This document shows positions 10,893-57,457 of a stretch of 64,000 nt of DNA, piece by piece; the stretch's first letter is position 1; each line of letters opens with the position of its first letter. Source of the DNA: Panopea generosa. Taxonomy: Eukaryota > Mollusca > Bivalvia > Adapedonta > Hiatellidae. The position numbers and the translations under genes are program-made. The DNA is taken from the NCBI GenBank assembly GCA_029582155.1, contig CM055901.1, positions 2,915,001 to 2,979,000 on the forward strand, written 5' to 3'. Under the pieces are notes generated by a model, which saw only the letters and a list, made by a program, of their open reading frames with translations, was not told the DNA's origin and made no database searches.

Positions 10893-12311
10893 AAACAAGA
10901 GGCCCAAGAGGGCCTGAGGACGCTCTACTGACTCATAGTGGCCATAGCACTTTTTGAAATTCTACTATGCAATAGAAACATCGGCCATCTTGAATTTTAG
11001 ATAGAAAAAATAAATCATTTGTATAGTCTCCTATGCAGTAGAAACACCCATATGAAGTTTCAGTTTAATTGGACTAGTGGTTTCAGAATAAATGAAAAAA
11101 AAGAGAATTTTCTGTTTTCCCACAGTATCGAAAACAACTTTACTAATTCTCAATTTGTACCCTTTTGGGGGCCCTCCTGACCCCTTAAGACATAGAAACC
11201 CAGCCATTTTTACAAATCTTAACCTCCTTCACCTAACAATGCTTTAGTGAAAATATAGTCAAAATCATTTCCATTTAAAAAAAAAAAAAAAATATTATAT
11301 TGATATGTGTCCCCTAATTGAACTCTCAGGGCAGGGTCATTTTAAACCCTAGGGACACCATTTGAACAAATCTAACAGAACTATAGTTGGTCATCTACAT
11401 AAACATTTTAAAAATCTGTTGGGCCGTTCATGAGAAGAAGATTTTTTAAGTTTTGGACTATTTTTAGTAATGGCGGCCATCTTGAATTTCAGATCGAAAA
11501 AAAAAATCTTCTGTATAGTCTCCTATGCAATAGAAACACCCATGTGAAGTTTCAGTTTAACTGGCCTAGTGGTTTCAGAACAGATGAATGAAAAAGAAAA
11601 TTTTCTGTTTTCCCATAGTATCCCTATGTAAAATTCTAAGTCCCCTTACAGGGCCCCTATAAATTTTAGCCCCTAAATTCTTATCTGCAATCAAACCCTT
11701 ACACATAGGGATAATTTATGCAAAATATGAACAAATGTGACATACCGGTTATTAAGAAAACGAATTTAGTAATTCCCAATTTGTACCCTTTTAGGGCCCC
11801 TCCTGACCCCTTAAGACAGTGGAACACAGTCATTTTTACAAATCTTAACCTCCTTCAACAAACAATGCTTCTGTGAAGATATAGGCAAAATCATTTCCAT
11901 TTAAAAAAAAAATATTATAATGACATGTGTTCCCTAATTGAACCCTTGGGGCAGGGTCATATTAACCCTAGGGACACCATTTGAACAAATCTAACAAAAC
12001 TAAAGTTGGTCATCATTACTTCATAAACATTTTGAAAATCTGTTGGGCCGTTCATGAGAAGAAGATTTTTTAAGTTTTGGAATATTTTTAGTAACAGTGG
12101 CCATCTTGATTTTCAGATCGAAAAAAAAAAATCTTCTGTAGTCTCCTATGCAATAGAAACACCCATGTGAAGTTTCAGTTTAATTTGCCTAGTGGTTTCA
12201 GAGAAAGTGCTGCTAATAGACGACAAACGACAGACAACAGGCAGACGACAGATGACAGACAAGGCGCCATTGCATAAGCACTTCTGGCCTTTGGCCAGTA
12301 GAGCTAAAAAA
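10893..12311. mobile_element. AACAAGAG...GAGCTAA element with 620-bp internal repeats
   Basis: Head AAACAAGAG plus hairpin GGCCC-AAGA-GGGCC (10901-10914) and GCTCTACTGA. The interior is two-plus copies of a roughly 620-bp unit (CCTGACCCCTTAAGACA at about 11176 and 11802; CCATCTTGA at about 10985, 11476 and 12097). The tail has GACGACAxACGACAGACA stretches, hairpin CTGGCC-TTT-GGCCAG and GAGCTAAAAAA. Same termini as the elements at 23243, 38156, 38837 and 43368 but a different interior. No coding capacity. Confidence 0.65.
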
Positions 12312-12423
12312 CGGCGTACGCTCCCCATCCTAGCAAGTTTCATAGAATTCCAATAAAATGGCATATAGTCCAGACATTGATTTGGGGACACATGGACAAA
12401 AAATGGCGACTATGTGCTTCTCC

Positions 12424-12530
12424 GAATTTTTTCAGTAGGATTCCTACCCCTCTACAGAGATCGACAGTGACTCTATTCTTAGCCAGAACGACACAGGCTT
12501 CTACTGTTAAGTCTTACGGATTTAATTATT
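12424..12530. repeat. Family G 3' fragment
   Basis: GGATTCCTACCCCTCTACAG then AGATCGACAGTGACTCTATT nearly matches 13689-13740. Confidence 0.6.
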
Positions 12531-12924
12531 TGGCATTCATTTTGGAAAATAACTAAAAACAAGATCACACAGTATGTACAGTTATTATATTTTAATATTT
12601 ACCATTGACATAAAAACAACAATAATAGTTTGAATACATCATGTATTCTATAATCAATACTCAATAAATATGTCTTAATGTTTATCATAGCATTGTAACA
12701 ACAAAGTCATTTCCATAACCTCCACGTGTATGAACAGAAACAAAACTGAATGTCTTCAAAAATAGGCCTTTACGTTACATTGATGATTTGGTTCTCCTCT
12801 AGTTCGTCATATATGTAAAAAAGTATAACAAACAACTGCCTACAAAAATGAACTTAAACGTATGTTAGTAGCATACAGGGAGGATTCATAAATGAGGTGA
12901 AAGGGTTTGGGGAGTAATCAAATG

Positions 12925-13127
12925 GGGCAGTAGTGTGGTGGATAGTTTTGGCCGCTAATGCTAAAGGTTGCAGGTTTGATTGCCAGCTAGACCCGATGCC
13001 TTTCAAATAACAACACTCCGAACTTGTTCTACCCAGGAATCAGACTCGATAGTGGCTCATAAGGGCTCCTAACTTACTTCTCAATATAGCTAAAACAAGT
13101 AAATAATATAGTATAAACTAATCAACT
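12925..13127 (+). mobile_element. tRNA-like SINE family D
   Basis: GGGCAGTAGTGTGGTGGATA...GGTTGCAGGTTTGATTGCC forms a tRNA-like head. The body has GACCCGATGCC and CTACCCAGGAATCAGACTCG, and the 3' end is TAGTATAAACTAA. Shares its consensus with copies at 28976, 37355, 60031 and 60398. Confidence 0.75.
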
Positions 13128-13324
13128 TTGGTTTATAAACCGATACATTCATATCATACACTGTGCAATAGTCTCTCAAAATTTTTTGACTTTCTTTCTA
13201 TGAAATTATGTTTTATGGCAAAATGTAATTACTGGGATGGGGCCAGATTTCAATGAAGGGATACCTTCGGTACAATAATTGATTGCAGGCCACAGTCAAT
13301 GGCTAAACGGAAAAATAAAGATGT

Positions 13325-13751
13325 AATGAATGAATGAATAGGGTTTTACGGCATAACAACACCATATAGGTCATCCGACGCCAACAGGAAGGAAGATTCC
13401 AGGTTCACTCTACATGTACAAAAACAACAAATTAACATACAGATTTAAAAAAATACATCACCAAATGAATATGCAGAATGAACCTAGAATCTTGATACCT
13501 GCAGAACTGCAGAATTTCAGCAAGTTCTATGTATTACTCAATTTGTCGCTTCTTACGACATGCATAAGCCACAGTGATCCTATTCTTGCCATCACGCATG
13601 GCTCCCTGGAACAACACAGGGGCTGATAATTTAACCACAATAGTGAACATGACAAAAAATGATAAAATGAACATGACACCCATTCGGTGGATTCCTACCC
13701 CTCTGCAGAGATAGACAGTGATTCTATTCTTAGTCGGAACCACACGGGCTT
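13325..13751. repeat. Dispersed repeat family G, longest copy
   Basis: Begins AATGAATGAATAGGGTTTTA CGGCATAACAACACC and ends near CAGTGATTCTATTCTTAGTC GGAACCACACGGGC. Parts recur at 12424-12530, 49032-49124 and 51545-51955. No ORF of note; class unknown. Confidence 0.6.
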
Positions 13752-13960
13752 TAAAGATGTAAAAATGAGCTTGTTAAAACACTACATCAAAACCTAAGGA
13801 GCACCCAAGCTAAAACACTACAATAAATTAAGCTTATATCTGTCATACTATATTATGTATCATCAGATGACAAATATAAGTTTCAAGTGGACACTTTCAT
13901 TGATCATTTTTTATAGCAAGAATAATCACACTGAGTGAATATAAGATAGACCAGGGGTAG

Positions 13961-14200
13961 TATTCACCAACCTTTCTTAAGAACATTCTCAGTCTTGAGT
14001 TGAAAAATGAATTTTGAAAATCACACTTAATGACCATTTTACGAGGCCAAAATTTGAAAGCTTGCAGGGACACCAAATATATAGCCAAATAAACTCTCAC
14101 AATTATTCTATCTGTCATGGTCAACTGAATATCTAAGGTTGAAATTTTGAATTTCAAGCCCAAGTCCAAGAATATTTTCAAGAATGGTTGGTGAATGCGT
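13961..14200. mobile_element. MITE with about 55-bp inverted ends (TATTCACCAACC)
   Basis: The left end TATTCACCAACCTTTCTTAA GAACATTCTC is inverted at the right end as AATATTTTCAAGAATGGTTG GTGAATGC. The inner part (TTGAAAAATGAATTTTGAAA versus AAATTTTGAATTTCAAG) pairs too. Possible 3-bp GTA duplication. Non-coding. Confidence 0.7.
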
Positions 14201-14819
14201 ACAAACTTTTCCCCCATGTCAAATACATCCCTGTCATGTATATAATAATGGAAAATTATACAGGCATTTTCGGACAAGTTGCTGTTTAAAGACACAATGC
14301 TTACATGCACTTATGCTAACAGGTGCTGATTTTAACATGCTGATACTCAGAGACACTGATGTTGACAGACACGGATGCTGAAGGACATTTGTGCCAAATC
14401 TGAAGCTGACAAACAAACACTATCACATTGCTCATCTTGACTCGACCAGTATTTAACAAAACAACCAAAATATGATGGATGGTGCACAACTGCTTATGAT
14501 TTGTGATGTTTGTACTAATCTTTGGTGACTATATATAAATATCAACAGTTGCAGACACCTGACCATACAAATTTACTCTAGCAAACTAAATGCCATTCAA
14601 ATAACAAGTTAATTTATTGCACATATTATTTATTTTACATATTCAATCCTACAGACACCTCAAATCATAAAATTTATTCCAGTTTATATTCATTCCTTGT
14701 TGTGATATTGGTATGTTTGTTATTATTTCTGCATTAGGTAAGTCACAAAGTACTATCCCAGAGAGACAGACAAAAGTACAAAGTTAATAAATCAATCAAA
14801 CTTGATAAATCAATCAATT

Positions 14820-14848
14820 GCGAAAGAGAGAAAGAGAGAAAGAGAGAA
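14820..14848. repeat. Short (GAGAAA)n microsatellite
   Basis: GCGAAAGAGAGAAAGAGAGA AAGAGAGAA. Simple repeat in intergenic DNA. Confidence 0.85.
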
Positions 14849-15086
14849 GACAAACCATACCCTACTTGTGATTATCAGAATACATGACTCTTTTATCTGT
14901 TATACTTGGATTAAATATTTTTTGATAATCATTTTAACTCTTTAAAAATATTTTTTTTATATCTAAACATGAGCAGTAAGAACTGTTTTTGAAATTCAAA
15001 AGTTTAAAATTATTTATTTTACTTTGATTGTGAAACAAATTCTTACAACTTATGCAAATCACACTCGAAATCTTCCTAGTAAGAAC

Positions 15087-15215
15087 CAGTACTAAGCATA
15101 TGCGAAAAAAATTGTCTTGCTCAAGGACACCACGCATAGCTGTGGCAGAGGATCGGACCCAGTCCCCCGGTCATGGGTTCAGTGCTCTACCAATGAACCA
15201 CACTCTACAAAAAAT
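15087..15215 (-). mobile_element. SINE family C, 5' part, reverse copy
   Basis: On the minus strand: GTGTGGTTCATTGGTAGAGC, GACTGGGTCCGATCCTCTGCC and GTCCTTGAGCAAGACA, matching family C. The 3' half is missing. The ORF here is an artefact. Confidence 0.75.
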
Positions 15216-16060
15216 TAACACCAGTATATTAAATTAACAGAAATATTGCAGATGTATAAAAGTATTGAATCAATTTTTGATAACAAAATTTGGTAAATCG
15301 GCAGATTTTATCCACTTTTGGTCACAGCTACATACAAAATATGTAACTCATTAAACAAGTTGAGCTTTTCTTCAACTGAAAAATCTCAATTTCTATAAAT
15401 TATCATTCAACCCCATTACACATTAAATGACATCACAGAATTTAAGATAAATCTTTACTCTTTGGTAAAGGATAAAATGCAAATAGAGTTGAGGAAAATC
15501 TCATGTTAAGTGTTTCATGAAAATCTGACCAGGAACCTAGTATGCACATTTCAAATATTTCAGATTCCAAAAAATCTGTGATGTCAGTTAAGTTAGAATG
15601 CACACTTTACAGATTTCGGATTCCAAGAAACCTGCATTGTCCAGGTACCTCGTACTGGTATGTACATTTCAAAGATGATGGATTCTAAAATATCTGTTTG
15701 TACATAGATGCTTAGACCTGTGGTATAAAATGGGCTTTATTATATTTCAACTACATATAAGTTCTTATCTCTCTAAGCTAAACAACCAATATAAAACAAA
15801 TCTTGTTTCACTCCCTGGTATAAAAAAATCTGTATATATATATCATAAATATAAAAAGGGGTGTAAACGAAATGTAGGTACTAAGAACTAAAATGCCATG
15901 TAAATGCTACACAGTGCTATAAACATATATATTATTCTCTCCAGCAAACTATGAAAACACTTCATTTATATATATATATGTGTAAATATTTGACTTAGTT
16001 TCTTATATCTTAATACACAATAATGAGGTATTCTGCATTTCAACTTACAATTAATAAACA

Positions 16061-16303
16061 TATTTTTTTAATGGAGTTTAAAACCATTTTCAACACATTT
16101 TAGGTAATATATGGAATATCCAGTTTTATTGGTGGAAGAAGACCTCAGAATGAATCTAAGAAGAACCACTTTTTCCTGCAAGTAACTAGCACACCTTCTC
16201 ACTTAGAGTTTTTGAAAGCGGGACTCAAACCTTTGACCTTAATGGTGAGAAGTAAATGATCTTGAGACTTGCCTTAGACCACTCTGCCATGGGGGATCCT
16301 TTA
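16061..16303 (-). mobile_element. SINE family B, second copy
   Basis: The minus-strand head GGATCCCCCATGGCAGAGTG and GTCTAAGGC is followed by the same body as at 5282. Flanked by imperfect repeats ACAATTAATAAACA (16047-16060) and ACAATTCATAAAACA (16304-16318). The 3' motif is TTTTCAACACATTTTA. Confidence 0.8.
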
Positions 16304-16591
16304 ACAATTCATAAAACACATATATTGCTTTTGTTTCTTGAAATAGACACTTGTTTATGTATCAATGATACCTCTATTCATTTCCCCAACGGTTTGCTTT
16401 ATCATGCCATACAGATAAATTCAATAATTCTGTTTAAAATTAAGTGGTATACTTCATCTTTCCAAAGATTCAGCAGTAAAATCATGAATGTTAAAAGGGA
16501 GACAAGAAAAGTATACAACCACACAATGTAAATATGAAATTAAAATACCCCAGTATGTTTCCTGACCTTATATATAGTTTCTATTATGGAA

Positions 16592-16874: not shown

Positions 16875-17073
16875 TCTATTATGGAAAGGGACACAACCCT
16901 CTTAAATATTTGATAGGCATCCTATTCCACAGATCTTTGTTCATCAATGGCAAAAAATACAAGATGTGTAATTTTTAATCACTTTTAATTGTTGTTGTTT
17001 TTTTTCTTAAGAAAATACCAATTTGTATATATTTACATAGTTTCAAAACTAGCCTCACACCTCTGATTGCATA

Positions 17074-17135
17074 ACAACAGCTGCCAAAGGACAGCATGCT
17101 TGACCATTAGAATCATTGATTTAATGACTGAATAT
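17074..17135. mobile_element. Head fragment of the AACAANAG family
   Basis: AACAACAGCTGCCAAAGGAC with imperfect hairpin GCTGCC-AAAG-GACAGC (17080-17095), then ATGCTTGACC, close to the head of the 43368 element (GTGCTCGACC). The rest is not recognisable. Confidence 0.4.
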
Positions 17136-17568
17136 ATGCATGGGAAATTACAAACATCCCATAATAGAGTCCATGAGTATGGATTACATTACATTTTCAT
17201 GATTTCAAAGTTTGAAATCTCTTGGGTAACTTTTGTGTCCCTTTAAAGTCTTTCAAAACCAAATCATGAACCAATATTCAGTATCAGCATTTTTGAGACT
17301 GTTATCAAACATTACATGTTTACTGTTAATTTCAATGTTTTTCTGAACTTAGTATATATATTTCAAACATTTTTTATGAGTTTAATCAAGAAGTTGGTAT
17401 ATAAAAAATGACACAGTTTAACTAAAATTAACATAAACATTCATTCTCTAGCTGAATTCAAAAATGCAATTTTTTATCAAACTTGTTTTCAAATGTATTT
17501 TAAAATAAAATTTATTGCTAAAAAAAGTCAGTTTGTGGCATCAGTCCATCAAATATTTGTACTTAATA

Positions 17569-21800: not shown

Positions 21801-24800
21801 ACCATGTTAGGAAAGAAGACTGTAAGAAGAGACAACAATCAGACTACTGGCCCCAGGTCTTGTCTTCCTCAAACTGAGTAGAAATAGAAAACAGACAAAT
21901 GTTAGTTGGAGTATGTGTGCTCGGATATAATGTGCTCCATATAACATCAAGCAATGTCTTATTCATATATTCTCTAAAACATACCCACCATTCATATCTA
22001 CTGACCACTATTCTCTTAACATTTCACTACACAGTTACACCCCTATTTTTCATGGTAACATGATTCTTACACTTAAAAAAAAGGCTTATTTAATTTGGTT
22101 TTGAAATATTTTCAAAATGGTTCATAGTGGTTGTGGTTTCTTGCTGCTGATGTGTAGAGCAAGAGTTGGCAAAGCATATACTGCAATAAGACAACATTGG
22201 TGTTAAAAAAGTGACTTTTATAGGATTTCAACATATGCATGTATTTGTGAGCATTTGAGGACTTCTTTTTTCAAAAAATCTCAGGCGTCACTGCACCCTC
22301 TTTAAGATGCGAAGCTGGTCACCCTACAAGTTATTGTGCATATTTTTGTGGATATACATTCCTGCTATGAAAATAAATTACTTTAAAAAAAAATCTATGT
22401 GAAATTTTCTTTTTACCATGGACATCCTAAACCTTATTTTATAAAGAACATAGAACAAAATTCAACTGTGTAGTGAGACCATAATATATTAAATATATTT
22501 ACATTTAATAAGAAAATTGTTGTTCCTATGAGTAATTTGTCTGTTTTTATATGGAAGCAAAATGATAACAAGACTGGGTGCCACCAGCCCAACATACCCT
22601 ACCACTTGCTCTGTTACATTGCAGATTGAAACCTAGGTTGTAATGTTGTAAAAGGAAGATGTCTCCCTACTATGGTAATTTAAGTGAACTAAATTTACTT
22701 TAACAGATAATACCACCCACTTCTTCAACAAATTTGCAAGTATTAAGGGTTTCATAAACTATATCAACATTTAAGCTCACCCAAACTCTATTTATTGTCA
22801 TTAATACTTGCCCCGGAGCAGGAGGACGTAGAAATACCATGTTTTCAACCACCTTTACCAATCTTTATAGATCTTTAAATGCAGGGTCTTTCCCATTAAG
22901 AAATCATTATATTTCCCTACACTAAACATACAAAAATCTCTTTAAAAAAAATTTGAAATTGCTCTCATACCATTGCCCCAATTTTGTAGGGGGAAGTGAG
23001 CGGGTAGTTCTACTTTTGATCTAAAGTGACTTCCCTAAATTCTATAAAATAGGCTTGAGCCATTTAATTTTCTTGCCTGGCAACCATTTATTATTATGTT
23101 TGACTTAAAAAATAATTAAATAAACAAAAGAAAAACAGTTACAACAATGGCATGATTAAGTAATATTTAGTAATCACCAAAATCAAAAAAATATTCATTT
23201 CACAACACAATTCTTTACATGAATACTTTATTTGAAATTTAAAACAAGAGGGCCAAGATGGCCCTATATCGCTCACCTGACTGACCTTGAGTCACCCGAC
23301 TTAAATAGATTATATAATACATGTACACTAAAAATTCCAGAAAAACAAGATGGGCAAGTAGTTAGAATTTTGATTTGTTTTGAAGATGTAACAGATGCGT
23401 AGAAGAGTTCAAACTTGGTAGAGGTTCACCCATGGTAAATGTCAGTGAAATTACATCGAAATCAGGTCAGTAGATTCTGACAAGAAGGATTTTGAAGTTT
23501 TAACTATAGCTGCCTATATAGTAAACTAGCACCTCACTGTGATGTCATGTTTTTTAACAAATCACAACGGCTTGAACAAACTTGGTAAAAGGTCACCCAA
23601 GGAACATTTCTGCGAAATTGTTTTAAAATTGATCCAGTGGTTTCTGACAAGAAGATTTTTTAAGTTTTACTATAGCTTATAGAGTAAACTAACCGCATCC
23701 CCTGGCCACCATATTTTTTTACGAATCACTACGGTTTGAACAAACTTGGTGAAGGATCCACCAAGGAACATTTCTGTGAAATTATTTTAAAATCGAGCTA
23801 GTAGTTTGACAAGAACATTTTTTGAGTTTTTACTATAGCTTATATAGTAAACTAACTCCACCCACTGGCCACCATGTTTTTTTACGAATCAAGATGGCTT
23901 GAACAAACTTGGTAGAGGGTCACCCAAGGAACATTTCTGTGAAATTATTTTAAAATCGAGCTAGTAGTTTGACAAGAACATTTTTTGAGCTTATATAGTA
24001 AACTAACCCCACCCACTGGGGGCCATGTTTTTTTACGAATCAAGATGGCTTGAACAAACTTGGTAGAAGGTCACCCAAGGAACAGTTCTGTGAAATTATT
24101 TTAAAATCGAGCCAGTAGTTTCTGACAAGAAGATTTTTTAAGTTTTTAATATAGCTTATATAGTAAACTAACCCCATCCCCTGGGGGCCATGTTTTTTGA
24201 CGAATCAAGATGGCTTGAACAGATGTGGTAGAGGGTCACTCAAGGAACATTTCTGTGAAATTATTTTAAAATCGAGCCAGTAGTTTCTGACAAGAAGATT
24301 TTTTCATTTTTACTAATTAAACATGCCCCGCCCCCTGGCAGCCATGTTTTTTGACGAATCAAGATGGCTTGAACAAACTTGGTAGAGGGTCACCCAAGGA
24401 ACATTTCTGTGAAGTTATATCAAAATTGGCCCAGTGGTTTCAGAGGAGAAGTTGTTAGAAGCTAAAAGTTAATGACGAACAACAGACGACAGACACCAGG
24501 GGATCACAAAAGCTCACCTGTGAGCCTTCAGCTCAGGTGAGCTAAAAAATACATCAGATATAATTATACACTGGAAATGTATGACTTCTTGAAATGAATA
24601 CTACTAACTTTATCGAAAGCCACCTATTCCCCAACAAACTAAACTGGACTGGTTACTCTACTTCCTGTTCGCAGCAGGAGTCACAGTCAAGATACGTAGA
24701 CTGGCTACTGCATGCATGTTTTTTCCCCAAATACCATCTTAATAATATCATACTAACCATCACAATTTAAACTTTGATCGCTAAATTAATCTATCTCTCA

Positions 24801-27800
24801 AAATATCCGTGGGATGCTATAACATACATGTGAATCTATCTGCATTCCATTTACTTACCATATATATGTCCACCGTAGAAGTATTACATGTATACGTTGT
24901 TAGTAGTGCAAAAACAAACTTGTATGTAAGATTTTAGAAGGTACAATTAAAGCAATTATTACTAGGCCATAGCCACACTGAGGCAAATGTAGGCACTTGC
25001 CTCCTGTAGAGCTCGTGGAGATTTGAATTTTTCAATTAATATTTTTGTAAAAAAGATAATTATAATTATCCGTAACTTGCAGCAATGTGCCATTTCCTGT
25101 ACATATTTCCACTATCAATATACATCACAGTACAAAGCTAATAGTTTTATTACTCATACAGACAAACCTGTCTTAAGTAGCCAGTCAAGGGAAGGATTAA
25201 AAGTGGCCTTTTAAGACAGGTTGTTGCTTAATACAGGTTACTTTGTTCTAAAAGCATAGAAATGGGAAATAACAGATATGGATGCTTAAGACAGGTGGCT
25301 GCTTAATAGAGGTGACCACTTACACAGGTTTTACTGTAAATGATGTGTACTGATATGTCAGGTCTAAAAAGTCACACATGTGTATTCAAGATATTATTGG
25401 TGGTAAACCATGGTCAAATGTAAAATTCAGTACGAGTTATCGATTTGAAAAGCTTAACAAATGTCTTTCAGATATCAGGAAACCCAAATAAATACGTTTT
25501 GGGAGTTGTTTTTTTTCTGATGAAAAGTGTCCCCCCGATTCCCCAGCAAGGCTGGGATTATACCGCCTATTAAATAAATCTTTCGCTGCTGACCTGTATT
25601 AGCGTTTATGTGAGCCCAACATATTTTTTTTATACAATAAATAATTGACAAATATCATATTTTCTGTTTAATGTGTAAAAATTCATTATATTTTGAACTG
25701 TTAATAAAGAACAAGATGTAAAATTAAATATTTTTAAACTGTTAACTACAAGCTTTGTGTTTCAGTCATCTGAGATAATTCTTATTTCAAACCCTGTCTT
25801 TATGTACATATTATAATGATGACTTCTGCCATCTACACAAGAATTAAATGTATGTTATTTCTGCTTTAGTATAAAAAATCAATTTACTGTAACTTATATA
25901 GTAAACTAACCCCACCCCCTGGCCGCCATGTTTTTAAACAAATCAAGATGGCTTGGACAAACTTGGTAGACGGTCACCCAAGGAACATTTCTGTGAAATT
26001 ATTTTAAAAACGAGCTAGTAGTTTCTGACAAGAAGATTTTTTAAGTTTTTACTATAGCTTATATAGTAAACTAACCCCACCCACTGGGGGCCATGTTTTT
26101 TGACGAATCAAGATGGCTTGAACAAACTTGGTAGAGGGTCACCCAAGGAACATTTCTGTGAAATTATTTTAAAATCGAGCTAGTAGTTTGACAAGAACAT
26201 TTTTTGAGTTTTTACTATAGCTTATATAGTAAACTAACCCCACCCACTGGGGGTCATGTTTTTTGACGAATCAAGATGGCTTGAACAAACTTGGTAGAAG
26301 GTCACCCAAGGAACAGTTCTGTGAAATTATTTTAAAATCGAGCCAGTAGTTTCTGACAAGAAGATTTTTAAGTTTTTAATATAGCTTATATGGTAAACTA
26401 ACCCCATCCCCTGGGGGGCATTTTTTTTGACGAATCAAGATGGCTTGAACAAACTTGGTAGAGGTTCACCCAAGGAACATTTCTGTGAAATTATTTTAAA
26501 ATCGAGCCAGTAGTTTCTGACAAGAAGATTTTTTCATTTTTACTAATTAAACATGCCCCGCCCCCTGGCAGCCATGTTTTTTGACGAATCAAGATGGCTT
26601 GAACAAACTTGGTAGAGGGTCACCCAAGGAACATTTCTGTGAAGTTATATCAAAATTGGCCCAGTGGTTTCAGAGGAGATGTTGTTAGAAGCTAAAAGTT
26701 AATGACGGACAACAGACGACAGACACCAGGGGATCACAAAAGCTCACCTGTGAGCCTTCAGCTCAGGTGAGCTAAAAAATACATCAGATATAATTATACA
26801 CTGGAAATGTATGACTTCTTGAAATGAATACTACTAACTTTATCGAAAGCCACCTATTCCCCAACAAACTAAACTGGACTGGTTACTCTACTTCCTGTTC
26901 GCAGCAGGAGTCACAGTCAAGATACGTAGACTGGCTACTGCATGCATGTTTTTTCCCCAAATACCATCTTAATAATATCATACTAACCATCACAATTTAA
27001 ACTTTGATCGCTAAATTAATCTATCTCTCAAAATATCCGTGGGATGCTATAACATACATGTGAATCTATCTGCATTCCATTTACTTACCATATATATGTC
27101 CACCGTAGAAGTATTACATGTATACGTTGTTAGTAGTGCAAAAACAAACTTGTATGTAAGATTTTAGAAGGTACAATTAAAGCAATTATTACTAGGCCAT
27201 AGCCACACTGAGGCAAATGTAGGCACTTGCCTCCTGTAGAGCTCGTGGAGATTTGAATTTTTCAATTAATATTTTTGTAAAAAAGATAATTATAATTATC
27301 CGTAACTTGCAGCAATGTGCCATTTCCTGTACATATTTCCACTATCAATATACATCACAGTACAAAGCTAATAGTTTTATTACTCATACAGACAAACCTG
27401 TCTTAAGTAGCCAGTCAAGGGAAGGATTAAAAGTGGCCTTTTAAGACAGGTTGTTGCTTAATACAGGTTACTTTGTTCTAAAAGCATAGAAATGGGAAAT
27501 AACAGATATGGATGCTTAAGACAGGTGGCTGCTTAATAGAGGTGACCACTTACACAGGTTTTACTGTAAATGATGTGTACTGATATGTCAGGTCTAAAAA
27601 GTCACACATGTGTATTCAAGATATTATTGGTGGTAAACCATGGTCAAATGTAAAATTCAGTACGAGTTATCGATTTGAAAAGCTTAACAAATGTCTTTCA
27701 GATATCAGGAAACCCAAATAAATACGTTTTGGGAGTTGTTTTTTTTCTGATGAAAAGTGTCCCCCCGATTCCCCAGCAAGGCTGGGATTATACCGCCTAT

Positions 27801-30800
27801 TAAATAAATCTTTCGCTGCTGACCTGTATTAGCGTTTATGTGAGCCCAACATATTTTTTTTATACAATAAATAATTGACAAATATCATATTTTCTGTTTA
27901 ATGTGTAAAAATTCATTATATTTTGAACTGTTAATAAAGAACAAGATGTAAAATTAAATATTTTTAAACTGTTAACTACAAGCTTTGTGTTTCAGTCATC
28001 TGAGATAATTCTTATTTCAAACCCTGTCTTTATGTACATATTATAATGATGACTTCTGCCATCTACACAAGAATTAAATGTATGTTATTTCTGCTTTAGT
28101 ATAAAAAATCAATTTTTTCACTCCTGTACAGATTTTGATGAAAAAGAAAACAAAATGATTTATTTTCCATCAATAACACGAAACTAATAAAATAATTTAT
28201 ATTAAAAATGATAATCGATTTACACACAAGCAAAAATCAATAAAATCTCTTTGACGATAAACTTACTGAGGTGAGATTTTTCATTTATAGAAAAATCCTG
28301 ACTAAGCTTTACCCTTCAGATGAAAAAAAAATCGATCAATACATTTTATTGTCCATTACAAATTATCAGTTTCTTACTGTTTCTATAAAATGAAAAGCTG
28401 AAGAATATAATAGAATATACTGAACACCTTAAAAATGTACAAGTCTGTATGGTCACTCTTGGGAAAGAAAACTAACTTAGTATATTTCTTGAAACAGGTC
28501 AAAAGGTTATAAAACTTTGTTCCATAATCAACTCAACAGTTCGCCTCATTATAACAAAATAAATACTTTTTACCTCAAACCAGCGTTGATACATTGATAC
28601 TTCAACTTCAAAGCTGATTTACATGTTTGCACTTTAATTTATATTTTATATAAAATTGCATTTGAGTGTAAATTTGAGTTGATCATGAAAATAGTTTTAT
28701 AACCTCGTACCAGGATACGTTGTTGCAGCTACATATATTGCAAATATCTTGACAAAGACCATCACTTACCATAGGTCAAATATTCCATAAACTAATGGTA
28801 ACTTTTGTATGATGAAGTTTGTGGAGGAAAAAATTAACTGCAGACAAATTTTATAAATAATTACTTAAGAATTCATGTAAAGCTTTGTTTAGTGTTTTTT
28901 ATTGGATACCACTATGGTTAGTTTATATCAATTTGTTTCCGCTCAATTGTAAAAATAGCTCAGAGTTTAAATGAACCACTCTTGTGTCTGCGTCCTGGTT
29001 AGAACCAGTACTGAGTATTGTTTTTTGAGAGGCAATGGGTCGAGCTGGGGATTAAACCTGCGACCTCTGGTGTGAAGTTCCAACACTTTATCCAATATAC
29101 TATAAGAAACAGTATCAATAAATAATGCCAGTTTTACCTGCTACGATTGTTTACTAAATATTCAAACCTATGACAAATGCCTTTCTCTAGCTGATTAATG
29201 ATAGCAACAGAGTAATTAGATCATATAGATAATACATGTATAAATCTACAATCTAGCGGTCACTCACCTTGCCTGGACTAAAGTCAGCAAAGTTTGTGAA
29301 AGCATCTCCACTGCCGCCACTCACCCCGGTCGAAGATCCTGCAAATGGATCTGCACTTCCAAATGGATCATTAGGAAAACCACCAAAGGGATCTGGTTTA
29401 CTGGGTTTAGATGGACTAGCACTCGGCGACTTGCCCTTGGGTGGAGCTGGCCTCGGAGGGGGTGCTTTCTTTTGTTTTGGGGGAAGTGCCGGACGAGGCG
29501 ACTCAGAACGACTTTTAGCAGGTGATGGTGCAAAAGGATCACTACCAAATAAATCTCCACTAGATTTCTACAAAGGGAAACAGGTTGTAAATGTTATATG
29601 GAATAATGGGAGGAGACTATAGTTAGTAAGAAGGATCACTCAAGTGAAACCCGGCACTAAACAGGTGTATCTCATGCTTATCAATAACCATCTTAATACA
29701 TTTTAGCAGTGAAATAAAAACAAAAGATTTACCCTTTTACAGCTTATCCAAAGAGATAACAGAGATCTTGGGAAAGAGAACTGTGGCCAATCTTTATAAA
29801 AAGTTTCTAAAATTGTTGAAACTTTGAAATGGTCAGACTAACATAAAGATAGCTTTCCACTCTATATTTTTAAACCTGTGTGTAATAATTTAGAGTAACT
29901 CTTCCCTTCCAAATTTTTATTTTAACACCCGAGTGTAATAATTTAAAATAAGCTTGGTCATCAACATTCTTATATCCCAATAGGATATCCACTCTCTTGC
30001 ACATACATGTATTCTCTTCTCAAATCCAAATGCAATAATTTCGAATAGGTCTTCCATTTGTCATGTTGTTTATATATCCCCAAATCAAGTGTGATAACTT
30101 TTCGGTTATAAAAAACTTATATGGGACACTTATTAGATGTATATATGAATTCATGACAGATGTTTGAAGGGTGGGGGAATGGGGGGTAACATCTAAAAAC
30201 TGAGGAAATTAGAAACATTATCTATAGCAAAGGAATATTAAACTGAAAAAATGAACAACCATGACATAACACAGAGAGGGAAGAAATAAAGATGGCCACA
30301 CATTTCTCGTTTCCAACTGAGACATTAGGATAATGGCTGACACAAGATGCACAGATGTATTCAGAGGAGAGGGACAGGGAATCTGGATCCCTCCTAGGAC
30401 TCACTGACAAATATTCAGTAAAAATATATTTAATTCACTATCTTGGAACCATCCTGAAATTGGTGCACCAATCATCTGCCTGCGAGATGAATAACTCTTG
30501 GTATGTGGCCAAGCGATTTTTCTGCATGTGTCTTTCCAAAAAGAAGATACTAACATAACTGTCAAAGGAACAAGAATACCACTTTGAATAAATATATGAG
30601 ATTTTTGTGTAGAGATTCAGAGAGATGGAGATATATAAGCTAGCAAGCTAGCATTAGACACACAGGTACTGGCATTAGCATGCATTTTCTGATTTATATG
30701 GGGGGAAAACGGCAATTTAACATCTTCAAGTCTCATCATCAGTAAGAACTGTTAAGCAAAAAACAAAGCCAGCACACAGCTTCAGCATAAATATTGATGA

Positions 30801-33800: not shown

Positions 33801-36800
33801 TTGTTGTACTGCCCTATGTTGGTCTTGAAGGTGCTGTACACGAGCCTTAGTCTGTTATGTTATACATGAATTAAAACTACAATCTAGACAAATATGGGTC
33901 TTAAACTAGAAATGTATCCTGCTATATGTTAGAAACTGGGACAAAAACTTAATGTAAAATTTGGCCGGTGTTGACAAATATCGAACTTGACCTGCGTTTT
34001 ATAGTACTGTATCCTCACACCAAATTTTATTGAAATACATATGTCTTTTCAGCTCTTATTGATCAGAAACCAATATGACACACAGCCAGACAGGGATAAC
34101 ACTAAATGCCCTTCACCATCTTTAAATGGTAGAAACATAAAAAATAAAAATCAACCTCCAATAATACACCATTTTTGCCTTTTACTATGACATAGTTTCA
34201 ATGCAACTTGTACATATATATTTAAACTGTTGTGCAAATAGCCATAATTTTTGGCAGCTTGGTATTTTTCGTGTTTCCTCCATAACTTAATTGCCATGAT
34301 AGCTGAACAAATGCCTAGATTTTCTGCATGTTAAATCAGTACATAAACATATTAATAATAATAATAATGTTTTTATTTAGGACAGGTAAACTCATTAAGT
34401 TTTATATACAACATAATACTTATTTTCAATGAGGCCAACACTGTATGTCAGATAACATGTCAGATAATGAATCGGTAATATTGCATTCTGTTTTATACCT
34501 GATTAACTTGTAACAGAACATCCTTGTGACTTTTTACCAGCTGTTCCATCTGTTGTTTACCCGACTCTACTCGCTGTTCTAACTGGTTTTCCTCCTCCCT
34601 CAATTTCCCAAGTTCTATACGTAATCTGTTCAACTCTTCATCTTGTTCCTTGTAAATAGAAGTTGGAATGATTATAGTTTGGTTATATAGTTATAATATT
34701 TACCTGCTAATGATGTCAAATGATTCCAGGTATCTAATTCTGTAATCAATATTTCCATTTTCTTCCCTTTTACATAATTGTTTTTTTTTTACAATATTGC
34801 CGACATCAACAAACTAGTTACAATACATGTAGTGTACACGTAAAAAAAAATGTCATAACATTACCAACATTCTTTGAGCAAAGACATGTCAATTATTTAA
34901 TAAGATTTATAAAATCAGATATGTCACAATATGGCTACATATTATGGCTAATAATTTCTAAAATCACACATAATATAATATCATAATTACTTTTAACATA
35001 CATATTACTGAAATTTATTCTTACAATCAGGAATTAATCCCATTTCAAGTTATAAGTACATGCATATCTGCATGTATAAAGAAAACATATTTACCAGTGC
35101 AGATTTTTCTTGATTTTTAAGTTGATTATTCAATGAATCGATCTGTGAAAGAAAGAATTATGTAAACAAAATATAAACACTGTAATGTATTAATAAATAG
35201 TCTCTTTCCTCAACAGTTTTTTTGTAGGAAGAAATATTTACAAAACACCAATTAAAGAATATCTACAGAACAAGAGGTGTCAGAAGACAACAAAGCTCCC
35301 CTATGTGATAAAACTCACCACCCATGCAAAGATTAAAATTGGAAGCAAACATCAAAACTTAACAGGTCATTGCAATAGCCCTCACATAGTGATACACAGG
35401 GGTTAGTGACAATATATATTCTATATCCCTATATATATTATGATAAAGACTTTATTATACCAAAGTCAAAGGAGCACCTTTAGATAACTTGGCTACAGAA
35501 GAAATAGTATATAATTATATTATCAATCGATAATGTACCTATCTTGGTATACATAAGGCAAAAGTAACAATATTAAAAGAACACCACGGTGATACATGTA
35601 TGTGAAATCAGAAAAGATTTTAACCTGTTTTTGTTCCTCTTCACACTTCAGTTTGACTTCCCTTACACTTGTTTCCAGGCCAGATTTCTATAAAACAAAC
35701 ACACACACAAAAAATTAACTACAGTGAAATTATGTTATTTTGTGATCCCTGTTACAGGTTTGTATTCTGGCATAGTACCACCATTGCAAAAAGGAAGTGC
35801 TTCTGTGGGGTAGTCGCATAATGGCGGTTACAAATAATCCTCATTTCTACTTTTTTAAAAGTGTATTTTCCTTATTTTAATGCTCATTTTTTTATTTGAA
35901 TGGCATTATTGATGCTTGGAAATTGGGGTATGAATACATGATTTCGGAAGTCTACTTTCACTTTTTCAACAGTGTACACACTGAGCAGGAAAAAAATCTC
36001 TTATATGACACATGACACCTACTTTTCTCATCATATTTTGATAGTGCAGAGGTTGACAAACAGTAAAATGTAGGTTTCACTTCTTTCATTTGGGATTCTC
36101 TATGAATGACAAACCTTCAAACTTTTATTAATTACTATAGAATAAAGAACAAAAATCAATGGTGGGGTTACACCTTGTCACTGGCTATATACCAGTACAT
36201 CTTCTGGACAGAAGTGTCTTTCTTTCCTCCTTGACTTCTTAATGATGTAATAAAAAGTAAATAAAAGAACCCAAATATAATTGATGTTCAAACTTCATCA
36301 GAAGTTCATGTTAGAGAGCAAACCTGAAAGAACTCTGAGCTTTACCCACAATCAAGCTAAAATAATTTTGTATAAACTAAACAGTTGCTAGTACTTTTTT
36401 AAATGATAAAATATGCAAAATTTCAATGCAAACAGCACACAAACATAAAATTAGTCATAAAAGACTATTTTTATTATATTTATTCATAAAGATGTTTCTT
36501 AAAATAGCTTCCATTTTTCACAAGTGATCGATGTAAATATTCAATGCAATGCCAATGTGCACAAAGACATTTAAAATTATTTAAGTTTACCTATTTATCA
36601 AACTATAAATTAATAAATCTGAAACTGTAAAGCATCCAGTACAAAGAATTTCAAGAAATTTAGCTGTGATGCATGGATACCTATAGAATCCTCATTTTTC
36701 TTCTTTCAAACAACCATTAAACAATCAATCCTATACACATGTAAGTGTATGCTTACACTACCTACCTTCTCATCAAGTTCGTCGAGGCATTTCTGTGCAT

Positions 36801-39800
36801 CTTTCTTCTGATTTTCCAGTTGGTGTAGTGTACCTGTAACACTGTTTAGTTCCTTCTCCAGTGTCTGTACCTCCCCCTGGCATATACGGATGTCTGCTGT
36901 CTGTTGTTGCTGACCTGCCTCTAGCCGCAACTTCTCCCTGCACATATTGTAAGGTTTTATAATCAATATTAATGACATTTTACTCTTCTTTCCAAGTTTC
37001 TGGAGGTTTAAGTAAAGAATATTACTGACAGAGAGCCAAACAGACAGTTTGATCATTGTTTGCAAATGGCAACATGGTTGTTTAATAATAGCAAATGTTT
37101 TATCAAGCATTGAAACAATGGAAATCAAAGACATTTTCACTATGTAATATCTTACTCAGAAGCCCTGAACTATGAAAGTTTGCTATGACCATCTGCTTCT
37201 TATGAATGCTATGGAGATCCAGTTTCTATCTCAGCTATATAAATAAGAAATTCTTATGGTGACCCATTTAAACAATTGAGTTTTCATGAGGAGGAACACA
37301 ATTTATATAGGAAAATTGTATTACTAGTGTACTACTTGTATTTTCAAAGTTGAGATATAGGATAGGATATTGGCCATTCACACTAGGGGTTGCAGGTCCA
37401 ATCCCCAGCTCAATCTGATAGCCTCTTTAAATACATTCAGTACTGGTTTTGCCCAGAAAGTGGACTTGAGAGCGGTTCATATAACCTCTGAACTTTACCC
37501 CAAATCGAGCTAAAATAAATTTATATAAACTAAAACTCAGATACAGATGTGAATAGGGAGTAATGCTGCAAGCTGCCATCACTACTCAGCACTCAGATAC
37601 ACTAGTAGAATATATAGAATCTTAACAAGGCCTAAAGATGTCATGGTAAAACGAGTTGATATTACTATTAAGTTTTACACTAGTTAGCAAACAATGATAA
37701 TTACTTCTTGATGTCATCTATTTCTTTTTGTATCATATCTAACTCCTTAATGGCAGAGAAGTCTGCAACATGTCCATATGGTCCAGCACTTGTGCCACCA
37801 TCCTGTAACAAACATTTAAAATCATAACTGTGCTAAATATATCTGTAACATTACAAGTGGTATATAAATCATATACAACTAAAATAATAATATTAAAAGA
37901 AAATTTGCAATAGATTTTTGATATTTTGTTTTTGTTTAATATGTAATTATTTTCTGCATTATGATATCCTGGGGAGAAACACTGGATACATTGTGTTTAT
38001 GAATAAAAAAAACACATGATAACTTTATGGTACAATGTTATTGACCAGTATTTGTAACTAGTGCATGGAGAGAACAAATACATTGTATTTATTTTGGTGT
38101 TGACTGTAATTATGCTTAATTAGCAGCTATACTGATTTCAGATCACAAAATTATACAACAAGAGCCCTGCAAGCAGGCGCAGATTCTATTTATGTTATTA
38201 CAGGACCAGATAAATGGTTTGAGCTATATTTGGTGTTCCAGCCATTCATGTTAGAGCCAACAAAGTTCTACTGTAAACCAAAATATTGAATTGTTCTTTT
38301 TGTAAACCTTAGCTTATGTTTGTTTAGGAACAGAGAAAAAGCTCAGAGCTGAACAAAACTTTAAAATGAAGATGATGACAACAAAGCAATGCCGAACTGC
38401 AGTGTTATGGCAATATTATTTTTTTTCAAAAAGATGAGCTAAAAATCAAGTCTTAATATTGTTCTATATGATAAAATTAGAGATAAAAAAAACACTTTAC
38501 AGACCCTAGTTATTCATGATTATCTTACCATGGCTTTTTATTAAAAACAAAATCCAATTAATTCCCATTTAGCTGTAGAAACAAGGTATGTTATTTTGTG
38601 GTATAAACTTACAGCCACACCAAATGTTGTAGTATCTGCGGCTGTGCCTGGTCTCATGGAAGGTGGTACCATGTCTGGGGTGAGCTGTGCTGGTGGATCC
38701 ACACCCTTCATCTTGTTTTGTACCAGGTGCATGGCCAGGGCAAACTGGTCTGATGTCAACTTCCCTATGCCTTTCATGTCAGACAGACTCCTGCATTGTG
38801 TGAATATTATCTCTCAAATTAACCATATTTTTTATAACAAGAGTTGTCAGAAGGCAACAAAGCTTGCCTCTGGGTGTCTAAGTCCAAAAAGGGCCATAAC
38901 TGTGCCAAAATGCAATCCAGAGTTATGGTTCTTGTCTGTGTGTGTTGCAATGATGATGGTGTACACACATGCGAAGTTTCATTCACATCCAATGAGTGGT
39001 TGCATAGATATCTTAAACTAAAATACGAAAGTTTACCCTGGGTGTCTACAGACGCTGCCGCCGCCGACCACGCCGGGGTCATGGCAATAGCTCTCCTTGG
39101 ACTTCGTCCCAGCGAGCTAATAAAATTGTAACATTCACATGACGTTTTACTGATAGTAGTGAATTAAAATGTTATTCAAGTCTTCACCCAGGACTGATTC
39201 CTATAACAACATGAAGACAAATGTAAACTACTGTGACATGTACCTGTTATAACTGTTATCCATAATTATTAGTAAGTCTCAATAAAAATTCAGGTATAAT
39301 CTCTTATAACCATATTCCTATACCAGCAGGTATCCGCAAACTCCAGCTACATACCATATATGGGCAAGCACGTTGTTTTGCAGCCTGCTCTGTAAGAAGA
39401 TATCTCGTATTTCCTGCCCAGACACGTAGCCATCCATGTCCAGGTCAGCCTTACGAAACATAACATCATAGTTAGCTTTCTCTGCTGGTGAAACAATCCA
39501 AGTCTCCTTGCCCTGAAGAAACATTATGAAAAAAAAATAGTATGCTGTCATGGTGTAAAAACCAGCATCAATGAATCAGAGGTGAAGTGAATTGAGATAC
39601 ATTAAACTATTCCTGCTACGAAAAAATGCCTTATAAACAAGTGTGTAAAGCATAAAGAAGATATCTTCCGTGCTCCAGACAAGCAAAGCTTAGAAAAATT
39701 AAACAAAATGGAAGTAATCTGTTAATAAACATATCAAAATTATGCCCTTGTTCACTGAAATCATCACATAGTTCTATAAAAGTGTACAAACTTTGGAGGA

Positions 39801-42800
39801 ATTATCTTCCATACTTTTGAAGTTATGCTTGACCCACAACAGAAGATGGAAGGATGAACAAAGCGACAACTACATTATGATATCCTCCTAACATGTTTGG
39901 AAACTATGAATACCTGTTTCCAAATTTGACTACTTATATTAACCAACTGCTCAAACAAAAAATATTTTGTATATTAGATTAGATATTTAATATCAAAACA
40001 AATATTTTGCATAAATACACTTTTACTTTTTACTATTACAGTATTTAAAAACACGATCATTCATATTTAATGTGTTTTATTCCCTTTTGTTCTACCATTA
40101 ATTACAGTTAACCGATGCATGATTTGTTTTCGACACCCAACCATCTTTATTTTTTCTAATTTGTAAATTTTCTGATTTTGTAGTTTGTGCCTAATGTATA
40201 TGTGTGTCATAACTATCAAACAAGTTTGTGAGTTTGTTCTTAAACTTGTAAATCACAGCCTTAATACAACAATACTGGAATCACTGTCACCCATCTAACT
40301 ATGCTGGAAATTAAACTCAAACTGATGATATATTTATCTAATCACTGTACCATAACAAACAGAATACTCTTACATACCCTCAGTGATGGTGAGTCAGATC
40401 TCAGTGTTGGTGTGTTTCTGCCGCTTCCTGGGCCACCGAAACCTGGGAGAACTGGAACAGCCCCTGGTAATCCTGCTGCAGGTAATCCCTTCCTCTTCGA
40501 TGGAGGAACCAGACCAGGTGGAAGAGCCGCGGGTATGGCCTCTTTGGCCATTCCTTTGTGGACCAGATGCATGGCCTGAAAATAAAGTTGACAAGAAATC
40601 AATGAATTCAGATATGACGCCGAAAACGGCCAAATCTTAAAGGGCATACTTACTGGGGGGGAAAAGTACAATCTGAATGTTGTGACATCAACTGTCATTC
40701 ACCATGTGCATCAGATAATGTCTTAGAATATAAAAATATCAAACAAATAAAAAAAAAATTTCACAATGGAGTTTAATGCCATTTTCAACACATTTCAGTT
40801 ATAATTTTGGTTGTTCACCAGACACTCTAGTGTGACCGTGACCATTAATCTTCATACCTGGTTTTGAATCTTCAAGTGTAGACTTGAACCTAGTTATATT
40901 AAATCCTTCCGTGCATAAGAATTATTGACGTGGCACAAAAATGGAACTGTCAATAAAGACCATAACTATACTCTTTCCCACTATGCGGTCAGGGATAAAA
41001 AAAATAAACAAAAAGCCTGAAGAAGTACATGTAGTGTCATTGTTTATTTTCTGTATTTTCAAGATGTTCTGTTCCTTCGTTAAACATATTCTTGCTCCAC
41101 ATACATTCATATTTACCAGACAAACACTTATACTGCAATATATCTAAACATCATACTTCCAGCCATCAATTAACCATAAGTCCATGTATGTGTCTTTATG
41201 ATGGTCTGTTTCTTCATTAAAAACAAATTACAAATCCATGTTTGTATTTTCATGGGCACTGATTTGTTATAGTGCTCGATGGAATAACAGATACAGCGTA
41301 GTGGACAGTTGCTTTAGTGAAATAGAAATTTGCACAATTCATAGTTCTTACATATGTTAACAAATATCCAGATGTATTCTGAACCTGGTGATTTAAATGT
41401 GTTATGCTATGCTACTGAGAAGTATATATCATCGACCTTAGTCAGATACGACTCATCTTGGCTTATTCATACTTTTTTTTTCAGATAATTTTTATTATTT
41501 TAGAATACCCTTTAAAATCAAGACTAATTGTACAATTATTAATATGCTGTTGACATGAAAAACAATAAACAACTGCAATTTGAGTAAGAACTTAATGTCA
41601 TTCATTTAATTCTTGATCAATTTTAAATATGATATAATTCATACTAGATTTAGCAACTGAAAAATGTAGAGAACCAATACAAGTTTCATATTATTTACCT
41701 ATTGACAATCATAATTTGTAAGATTAGCCCAAAGAAAGATAACTATTTTGTTGATAAAGCACACACCAAAGCAAAAAAACAACATTTCCCCCCCATATCT
41801 ATCAAACTTCATGACAGAGTACCATTAATCAATATCTAAAATACAAAACATTCAATATTTTCCCCCTTATTCATGTCAGACTGAATTTTATAATATACAA
41901 GTATCAATATGTCGATTAAAGAAAGAATATCTTCAAAATTTGAAAATTGGCTAAAAAAAATTGTCCAATAAATCATGTCTACATATACTCAGCGACCCCT
42001 ATTTCCATAAGGATATAAATGTTATCATGCCAAAATATTATATTAAAAAGGGATTTCCTAGTTTACATGCCCAGGATAGACTAAAGTTTTGTGACGTATT
42101 AAATGATTCACATATATTTTTCTTCAATTTGATCTGTCATACTGGTTTACATATTATAGAATATGTTTCATCTTAGAACGAATCCGAATGACAATGTAAA
42201 AGTTTAAAGATTTTGTGCTGTCCATTTTTAGGATGAATATTACATTTGCAATTTAACACTGATTAAAATATTGTCTATTGTGACATTTCGATGGATTTGA
42301 TATACTAAACCATTTGGATTCCATTTTTACATGCTTTGTATCTACAGTAGTTTGAAAATAATTTTATTGTTAAGCCATGTATAGTGGTTTCCCTGATACA
42401 CTACCTTTAATATATGTGGTTTTATGTGGAAAACGAATATTTTATCCAAAAAATGTTCTTTAAATTAAAGCTCAATATTGCAAAAAATGCAATTACTAGT
42501 AGAGTGTGTGTGGTCAAATGGTAGAGTATCGAATCCAGGATCTAAATGTTGCGGGTTCAATCCTCTGCCACGGCTGTGTGTGATGGCCTTGAGCAAGACA
42601 CTTTATCCACATATGCTTTGCACTGGTTCTATCCAGGAAGACTTTAAGTGTGATTTGTCTAAAATTGTAATAACTGAAGTAAAATAAATCAGTTTAAACA
42701 ATGTAATTGTTACAAATATGCATGTATAACTGTAAACAGAACCTAAGTAAACATTTATAACAAAATATCTCACGAGTGCAAATTCATCCCTGTCTAGATA

Positions 42801-45800
42801 ACCATCCTTGTCTATGTCACTGAGTTCCCAGATACGCCCAAGAATGTCTACTGGAAGCTTGGAATTCATCAGCATCTGTCAAAATAAATGAAATATTTGT
42901 ATTTTACAAAGATAAGAGATTTATTAAAACTAACTTATGTTACATATGGATTATATAAATATATGCATAACATTCCAGCATGTAGAGTGTGTAGTCCAGT
43001 AGTACAGCATCAAACCCATGATCCAAGGGTTGTGGGTTCTATCCTCCCTCACGGCTATGTGTGGTGTCCTTGAGCAAGACACTTTTTTCATAAACGCTTA
43101 GTTATGGTTCTACCCAGGAAGACTTCAAGCGTGATTTGTCTAAGTTGTAAGAACGTGTTTCACAATCAAAGTAAAATAAATAAGTTTAAACATACCGGCC
43201 TGACTTTATCTCCACCAAGAAGGTTGTTAACTGGCTGTAAACTGTCAAACACTTGGTCATACTTTGATTTTTCACTTGCCTGAATAATAAGATTAAATTA
43301 AATAAATAATTAAAAAAGTCTAATGGAAAATTTCATAATTTTTACAAAAGATCCAATTAGACATAAAACAATAGCTGTCAGAGGGACAGCGTGCTCGACC
43401 ATTCAAATACAAATATTCAATCAAATACATTGAGTGATTGGTGAGATATAGACTTGATGGTCTTTGCACGCAAAACTTTAACCAGAAATTCTAAGTCAAA
43501 CAAGGGCAATAATTTGCATTATAGTCAGCCAAGAGTTATCTAACTTAGTTCTTGTAGAAGGGTTGATGACTAGGAAGATGTGTAAAGTTTCAAGTCAATA
43601 CATGCAATGGTTACTGAGATATGGACTTGATGGTACTTGCATGCAAAATTTTTAACTAGATTTTCTAAGTCAAACAAGGGCAATATTTGCATAATATTCA
43701 TGCAAGAGTTATCAAACTTAGTTATTGTAGTAGGGTTGATGACTGGGAAGACTTGTGTAAAGATTCAATCAAATACATTGAGTGGTTGGTGAGATATAGG
43801 CTTGATGGTACTTGCATGCAAAACTTTAACCAGAATCAAAGTCAAACAAGGGCAATAATTTTCATGATATTCATGAAAGAGTTGTCTAACTTAGCTATTG
43901 TAGTAGGGTTAATGACTAGGAATGATTGTGTAAAGTTTCAAGTCATGCATGCAATGGTTACTGAGATAGGGACTTGAATGCAAAACTTTAACCAAGGTGT
44001 GACGCCAAAGCCGGCGCTTGGGTGAGTACAATAGCTCTCTTTATACTCCGAATAGTCAAGCTAAAAATTGTACCATTTAGCTACTTAAATACAAATCATA
44101 TTTCATAAAAATTCTAAGAAAAAAACAATATTGTTTCATGTTTTATTCATGAGAGAATGTTTGGTTGTGTAATAAATGACCAATGACAATTGATCAATGT
44201 AAAGTTTTGTAAAAGACCTTAGGTTTTAATAATTTGATGAAGGAAAAGATATAAAATATGTAAGTATGTACATTAAGGGTCCATGGTCCACCAACCCCAG
44301 CTGCAGCAGTGCCTTCTGGTGCAATCTCTACTGGACCCTGAAATATACACAGTGATATATGTTACCATCAAATGTGACATATGTAAATATAGAATATATC
44401 AGTTACAGTAACATATGTAAATATCAAATATATACAGTGGCATATGTAAATATCAAATAAATACAGTTACAATAACATAATTTTATTGTGTAAATATCAA
44501 ATTTATACAGTGGTATATGTAAATATCAAATATATGCAGTGACATACGTAAATATCAAATATATACAGTGGTATATGTAAATATCAAATATACATGTATA
44601 CAGTGACATATGTAAATATCAAATATATACAGACACATATGTAAATAACAAATATATATGTATATACAGTGACATAATGTATATTTCAAATATATACAGT
44701 TGCATATGTAAATATCAAATATATACAATGGCATATGTAAACACAACACCTAGCCAGGCAACAGAAACAATATGAGTGTGTTTCTTGCTGGGTTGTCATT
44801 ATAAATATGTCGAGTTAGTCAGATTTCTTTGGGTGTTTTTTTACACTTCATTTTGAGTGTTCATTGGCCAGGTGGTCTAAATCAGTGTCATCTAATGATC
44901 AGGCATTACCCACTTATCACTGAGGTGGTGGATTCCAGCCAAACTCAGGCAGTAAAGTTTATGTGAGAAGATTTGCCAGTTTCTTGCAAAAGGAGAGTGG
45001 TACAGGGCTTGAAAATGCTTGTAAAAGCTACTCACCCCCCACTTTCTAAGATTCTTTTAATTGAATGCTTAAAATAAAAAATGTAAAGGTCAGTTTCTTA
45101 AATCTTACTCATCCCAACCAAATGCTGACTAGTCATGGCAAGCGTACGAAACTGAAAATTCAACTTCTGACATCCGACATAAATATAACCTTTAGGTACA
45201 ATTTATCTTAAAAAGAAAGAAACCAAAAACTAAAAAAATGCATGACATTACAAACATTTGGCACTATTTACATAGAATCTAGAAAATTAAAATGTTCAAA
45301 CTCAATTTTCAAGTAAATGTAACAGTATTTACAATTTGTCTACAAATTATTAATTTCAAACAAAAAATAAAAGAGTAGAAGTATGTTCTGGTACTTACAA
45401 GGTTTGGCTGTGGGGTTTCAGCAACAAGTTTACCAGCAGCAAGTTCCAGACCATTCTGTGACAGAGAGATATACTTAAGGGCCACAAAGAAACCCAGCTT
45501 CTCCAGGTAGCCTTTACCATTGGGGTCCGACATATCCCATATCTGAAGAAATAGGAACAACAAAGACAACAATAAATTTTGAACTACAGAAAACCTGATA
45601 TATGCTCAAATACAATTGCAATCTTTCTTATCATCAATTTAACTTCACTTCTACTGTTATTTAATACATCAATGAATGAAAAATTGCTCAAAATAAGGAT
45701 TTCTATTTTTTTTTTGGGTATATCATTAAAAGTACATCAGACAGACAAATGAACAGACAGATGAACAAAAGACAGGGGTAACACTTAATTCCCCTTCATC

Positions 45801-57381: not shown

Positions 57382-57457
<76 letters not shown>

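Follow-up and report, generated by a model that had tools for sequence, protein, structure and literature searches.

A recurrent hairpin in a Panopea generosa locus is most likely the 3' palindrome of non-autonomous Helentron-derived elements

Seven segments of a 64,000-nucleotide stretch of the Panopea generosa genome (the window) begin with the motif AACAANAG followed by a short hairpin, and the question raised by this locus is whether the hairpin is an undescribed 5' feature of transposons that resemble pearl elements and HINEs, as the first-pass annotation had proposed, or is a known landmark seen from the other strand. All seven starts are present, at 10894, 17073, 23243, 35269, 38157, 38836 and 43367, some of them one position away from where they had been placed. 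We conclude that the elements are very probably non-autonomous Helentron-derived rolling-circle transposons (HINEs, of the bivalve pearl/Cg_HINE type) in minus-strand orientation. Read in this direction, the two best examples, at 10894 and 23243, run from TTAGCTC through a 5' inverted repeat, a GTC-rich microsatellite, tandem repeats and a 3' subterminal repeat to a hairpin and TTGTT. Since this is the order of parts published for the HINEs of oyster, mite and Drosophila, the supposed 5' hairpin is most likely the 3' palindrome, located just inside the 3' terminus TTGTT; what had been taken for the 3' end becomes, as part of the same highly probable reading, the 5' terminus TTAGCTC, with its subterminal inverted repeat (subTIR) and an internal inverted repeat. 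The resemblance to pearl elements and HINEs remarked on at the outset is borne out in the part order, the subTIRs and the 3' palindrome (Table 1).

Table 1. Features of the window; left and right are the putative 5' and 3' ends as read on the minus strand, and z is the folding score relative to shuffled sequences (two values, both strands)
Feature	Positions	Strand	Left end	Right end	Remarks
Probable HINE	10894..12307	-	TTAGCTCTACTG; hairpin CTGGCC/GGCCAG; z -2.1; GTC-rich microsatellite from ~12261	subTIR CAGTAGAGC; hairpin AGGCCC/GGGCCT; TTGTT; z -2.5/-3.1	Long repeats at ~625 and ~492 bp offsets
Solo or truncated right end	17073..17112	-		hairpin GCTGTC/GGCAGC, one T-G; z -1.1/-1.3	
Probable HINE	23243..24545	-	5' inverted repeat and short GTCT/GTCG stretch; z -4.0	subTIR TCAGGTGAGC; hairpin AGGGCCA/TGGCCCT; z -3.8/-3.4	163-bp repeats
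Second copy of left part of the preceding element	25885..26775	-	26775	absent	Array and left end, inside a ~2.2 kb tandem duplication
Probable mini-HINE, ~136 bp	35269..35404	-	decayed, boundary approximate	stem GTTGTC/GACACC, one mismatch; z -0.5/-1.5	No array
Doubtful element	38157..38442	-	TTAGCTC; z 0.4	TTGTT; z 0.1/-0.3	No subTIR or supported hairpin
EPS15-like exon	38618..38792	-			Frame matches EPS15 EH domain in solved structures, E 2e-12
Probable HINE	38836..39120	-	hairpin GGAC/GTCC inside GCTC..GAGC; z -1.8	stem GTTGCC/GACAAC; z -0.5/-0.5	No tandem array
Probable HINE	43367..44064	-		subTIR GCTYGACYATTC; hairpin GCTGTC/GACAGC; z -2.4/-2.3	173-bp repeats
Dispersed repeat family	12990..13093, 28941..29049, 37404..37513, 60093..60202				72-80% over 81-104 bp
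Two overlapping open frames	52450..53684				141 and 285 aa; no Pfam match at E 0.01
CAT trinucleotide array	57283..57828				Long, imperfect, ~182 copies

A common right end is found at six of the seven starts; on the minus strand it consists of a subterminal repeat with GCTY, a hairpin of 5-7 bp and CTNTTGTT. Taken singly, the parts are common: there are 27 AACAANAG sites on the two strands of the window, 18 plus-strand and 4 minus-strand sites of [AG]AGCTAA, and a perfect stem of at least 4 bp at a similar offset in 21% of the plus-strand positions examined. Motif and hairpin together are not above chance, with 13 matches against a null mean of 7.35 and a maximum of 18. With GCTY required within 12 nt after the hairpin, seven matches remain, versus a mean of 0.21 and a maximum of 2 in 100 first-order Markov simulations, a contrast that is somewhat flattering, as the GCTY condition was chosen after the elements had been read. 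These seven are six of the original starts and 18679 on the other strand, which is probably a chance match. A second, two-strand scan gave nine matches (null mean 0.84, maximum 2; 50 simulations), namely five of the starts, with 35269 absent, the left-end hairpins of the 23243 element and of its second copy, and two sites, 2379 and 40558, that we judged to be chance. When the right ends were folded as single-stranded DNA on both strands, the hairpins at 10894, 23243 and 43367 clearly beat shuffled sequences (z -2.3 to -3.8); the fold is weak at 17073, not clearly better than shuffles at 35269 and no better at 38836, where the lowest-energy fold differs from the proposed hairpin. By the descriptor, six of the seven starts have a palindrome on the terminal side of the 3' subTIR, with fold support clear at three and weak or absent at four. 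The hairpin claimed for all seven is unsupported at 38157, where the complementarity between the two ends is also at chance (p 0.96); that segment is not supported as a HINE-type element.

The six remaining right ends form three related pairs: 10894 and 23243 (77.5% over 40 bp), 17073 and 43367 (83.8% over 37 bp), and 35269 and 38836 (86.5% over 37 bp). Across the outer five stem pairs of these six elements, 27 of 30 cells are Watson-Crick, versus a permutation mean of 17.3 and a best arrangement of 28; eight of the 720 arrangements of the 3' arms, the true one included, reach 27, although the permutation samples three subfamilies with few independent changes and is uncorrected for relatedness. 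Allowing wobble on either strand brings the count to 29 of 30, which 24 of the 720 arrangements equal; the C-A cell in the 38836 stem, for example, is a T-G wobble on the other strand. The only clear double change inside a related pair distinguishes 10894 from 23243. Pairing is kept more than sequence across the stems, and the evidence for this is modest: the earlier claim that the stems change under maintained pairing survives in these counts, but within three subfamilies, and with three of the six hairpins not clearly above shuffles.

At the opposite side, the left ends at 12307, 24545, 39120 and 44064 start, on the minus strand, with TTAGCTC or TTAGCTT, and the subTIR lies 3 nt from the end. 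All four are supported to differing degrees as termini; 38442 is not, and 35269 pairs with a left end at ~35404, which has 17 of 19 bases in common with the left end of the 38836 element. An alternative partner for 35269 at 36360 (p 0.093) was dropped in favour of ~35404. At the right end, the subTIR is ~26-38 nt from the terminus and is followed by the hairpin, itself 6-7 nt from the terminus, and then by CTNTTGTT. HINEs are recognized by subterminal inverted repeats that lie near the 5' end but farther in from the 3' end, and this arrangement is seen among the six two-ended elements. The match between the two repeats is exact in the 10894 element (9/9, p 0.0125 by shuffling) and in the core of the 23243 element (10/10, p 0.0005); it is approximate in 43367 (10/12, not significant alone, p 0.175) and in 35269 (CCCCTRTGT, 8/9), weak in 38836 (6/7) and absent in 38157. 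When the ends of the six two-ended elements were permuted, four of the 720 arrangements, including the true one, paired as well as own ends do; 17073 was left out, as no left end was recognized for it by eye. Two elements, 38836 and 35269, score slightly better against the left end of another element (5 versus 7 and 7 versus 8, respectively). The right end at 17073 scores 22 against the unrelated left end at 12307, equal to the best own pair, which we read as reflecting the likeness of the hairpins.

A 5' hairpin is seen in three of the five left ends folded, 38442 included (Table 1). The microsatellite scan finds a GTC-rich tract in the 10894 element, and also at 45779, and misses 23243, where a short GTC-rich stretch, 86% identical over 22 bp to that of 10894, was found by reading; the 43367 element has neither a microsatellite nor a clear 5' hairpin. 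Tandem arrays occupy three elements (10894, 23243 and 43367). The interiors had been described as unrelated, but some sequence is shared: stretches of 24-38 bp at 79-96% by 10894 and 23243, and 38 bp at 79% by 38836 and 43367. The flanks preceding TTAGC are T-rich (TTT directly in four of five cases, TTTTA in the fifth), whereas a T follows TTGTT in only three of seven. Joining the flanks and comparing them with the window revealed no empty site and no match across a junction, so that the exact ends and the preference for TT are putative. The flanks of the 10894 element (10635-10834 and 12326-12353) share stretches of 28-32 bp at 86-88%, and it may have inserted into another repeat. The duplication that contains the second copy of the 23243 left part, at 24442-28114, has 1339 bp of flank without a mismatch between copies and an array identical at 736 of 772 positions (36 mismatches); it either arose very recently or is an assembly artefact.

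Three other identities have to be weighed against the HINE reading. The idea of a separate class of transposon, marked by a new covarying hairpin at its 5' end, draws on the pairing that is kept through the stem changes, and on the fact that, for want of a coding frame, orientation is decided by anatomy alone; the authors of DINE-1 called its 5' and 3' ends arbitrary on the same ground (PMC2374699). However, the landmarks fit a HINE in the opposite orientation: the position of the 5' inverted repeat next to the subTIR, the flank of the element that carries the microsatellite, and how far the subTIR lies from either end. Moreover, the same feature has been published: the stem of the DINE-1 3' hairpin differs between Drosophila species, and its authors proposed compensatory mutations in 2008 (PMC2374699). 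With the other landmarks placing the hairpin at the 3' end, the claim of an undescribed 5' hairpin does not hold, and we regard a separate class as very improbable.

The inverted repeats near both ends would also suit MITEs derived from a cut-and-paste DNA transposon, to which pearl elements were originally assigned, but they are unevenly placed (3 nt from one terminus, ~26-29 nt from the opposite one), and by eye the flanks show no duplication longer than T or TT; this origin is, if anything, slightly less credible than a new class. Least likely of all is a canonical Helitron1 in the original orientation, its 3' CTRR beside a hairpin: the ends GAGCTAA and AAGCTAA do match CTRR, with a hairpin beside three of the five, but neither orientation offers a TC at the 5' end, CTAA is followed by A rather than T in four of five, and subterminal inverted repeats are present.

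The HINE reading is consistent, by contrast, with the published accounts of several families. Cg_HINE/pearl (PMC7492417) has, as here, central satellite-like repeats, a palindrome after the 3' subTIR, and subfamilies differing in subTIR, stems and loops; its 5' subTIR with a complementary inverted repeat, its GTCY/GTCK microsatellite and its T-rich targets have probable counterparts in some of the present elements. Compared by description, the elements here depart from it in that 38836 and 35269 lack an array and in that the microsatellite occurs in two elements. DINE-1 likewise combines a GTCY microsatellite with a hairpin a few nucleotides past the 3' subTIR and with differing but paired stems, and its central repeats are unrelated between species; its stems are longer (7-11 nt versus 5-7 here), its subTIR sequences are others, and its stems were compared between species rather than within one genome (PMC2374699). 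The mite HINE-Mo elements and Helentrons share the 3' subTIR, the 3' palindrome and probably the T-rich target, and only 2-4 nt separate their subTIR from the 5' terminus (3 nt in the present elements); their 3' subTIR and hairpin lie 38-60 bp and 8-35 bp from the end, compared with ~26-38 and 6-7 nt, respectively, their subTIRs are palindromic, unlike those here, and they have an autonomous partner, where none was seen in the window (PMC4067079). FoHeli1 and FoHeli2, of the Helitron2 type in Fusarium, also have terminal hairpins, the 5' one included, whose stems differ between two related subgroups; these differ from the present elements in being fungal, with autonomous members known, and in carrying a hairpin at each end, of which the 5' one is located at the very terminus, holds the inverted repeat and has a GAA loop (PMC5148889). 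A literature search with the short end sequences returned no paper with a mobile-element title.

Turning to the setting of the elements, the exon related to EPS15 lies between 38157 and the 38836 element, ~43 nt away from the latter's right end, and the two elements are therefore probably in the flanking introns. All six supported right ends have the minus-strand orientation, which is also that of the exon, although they are too few to judge. Among eight window frames compared with Pfam, from 17 of at least 110 aa, neither a transposase family nor an autonomous partner was seen; one coiled-coil frame weakly resembled a transposase in the PDB (E 0.18), and this match was disregarded. The sites 37513 and 60202 were rejected as HINE ends because they belong to the dispersed repeat family, with which 36360 shares only 28 bp; from its tRNA-like boxes, we take this family to be probably a SINE. 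ARAGORN (bacterial code) and Rfam at gathering scores gave nothing in the window. Outside it, three patterns had no match in a public viral-contig collection, and one pattern matched 84 stretches of a public genome-contig collection, where ~120 were expected by hand calculation; the 80 titles listed were all bacterial or archaeal, GCTY was nearby in 7 of the 85 matches examined, and none was taken as an element.

How stems could change and yet remain paired is suggested by related systems. What the window itself shows is the anatomy, the three right-end subfamilies, and subTIRs and hairpin arms that tend to match their own partners. By analogy, a Helentron Rep/Helicase supplied in trans would start at the 5' end during rolling-circle transposition and would stop at the 3' hairpin; the pairing of the stem would then matter more than its letters, so that stems would drift with compensation. 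In Helraiser, a reconstructed bat Helitron, the 3' hairpin is the transposition terminator: exchange of the stem retained ~90% of activity, whereas changes to the loop together with the pair at the hairpin's base, or replacement of the whole hairpin, lowered activity to the level of deletion (PMC4778049). Such tolerance would explain stems that drift yet stay paired, if it extends from Helitron1 to HINEs. It is also conceivable, if very unlikely, that within one genome each HINE subfamily has its own matched subTIR and 3' stem, the two evolving in concert as an address reserved for that subfamily's helper enzyme; if true, stem and subTIR would be a co-evolving lock-and-key code, as opposed to the product of neutral drift under a pairing constraint. 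With their likely identity and orientation settled, the elements can be given a HINE annotation, and the feature that had seemed new turns out to be the 3' hairpin already known. The locus contributes a small example, from within a single genome, of stem sequences that differ and yet remain paired.
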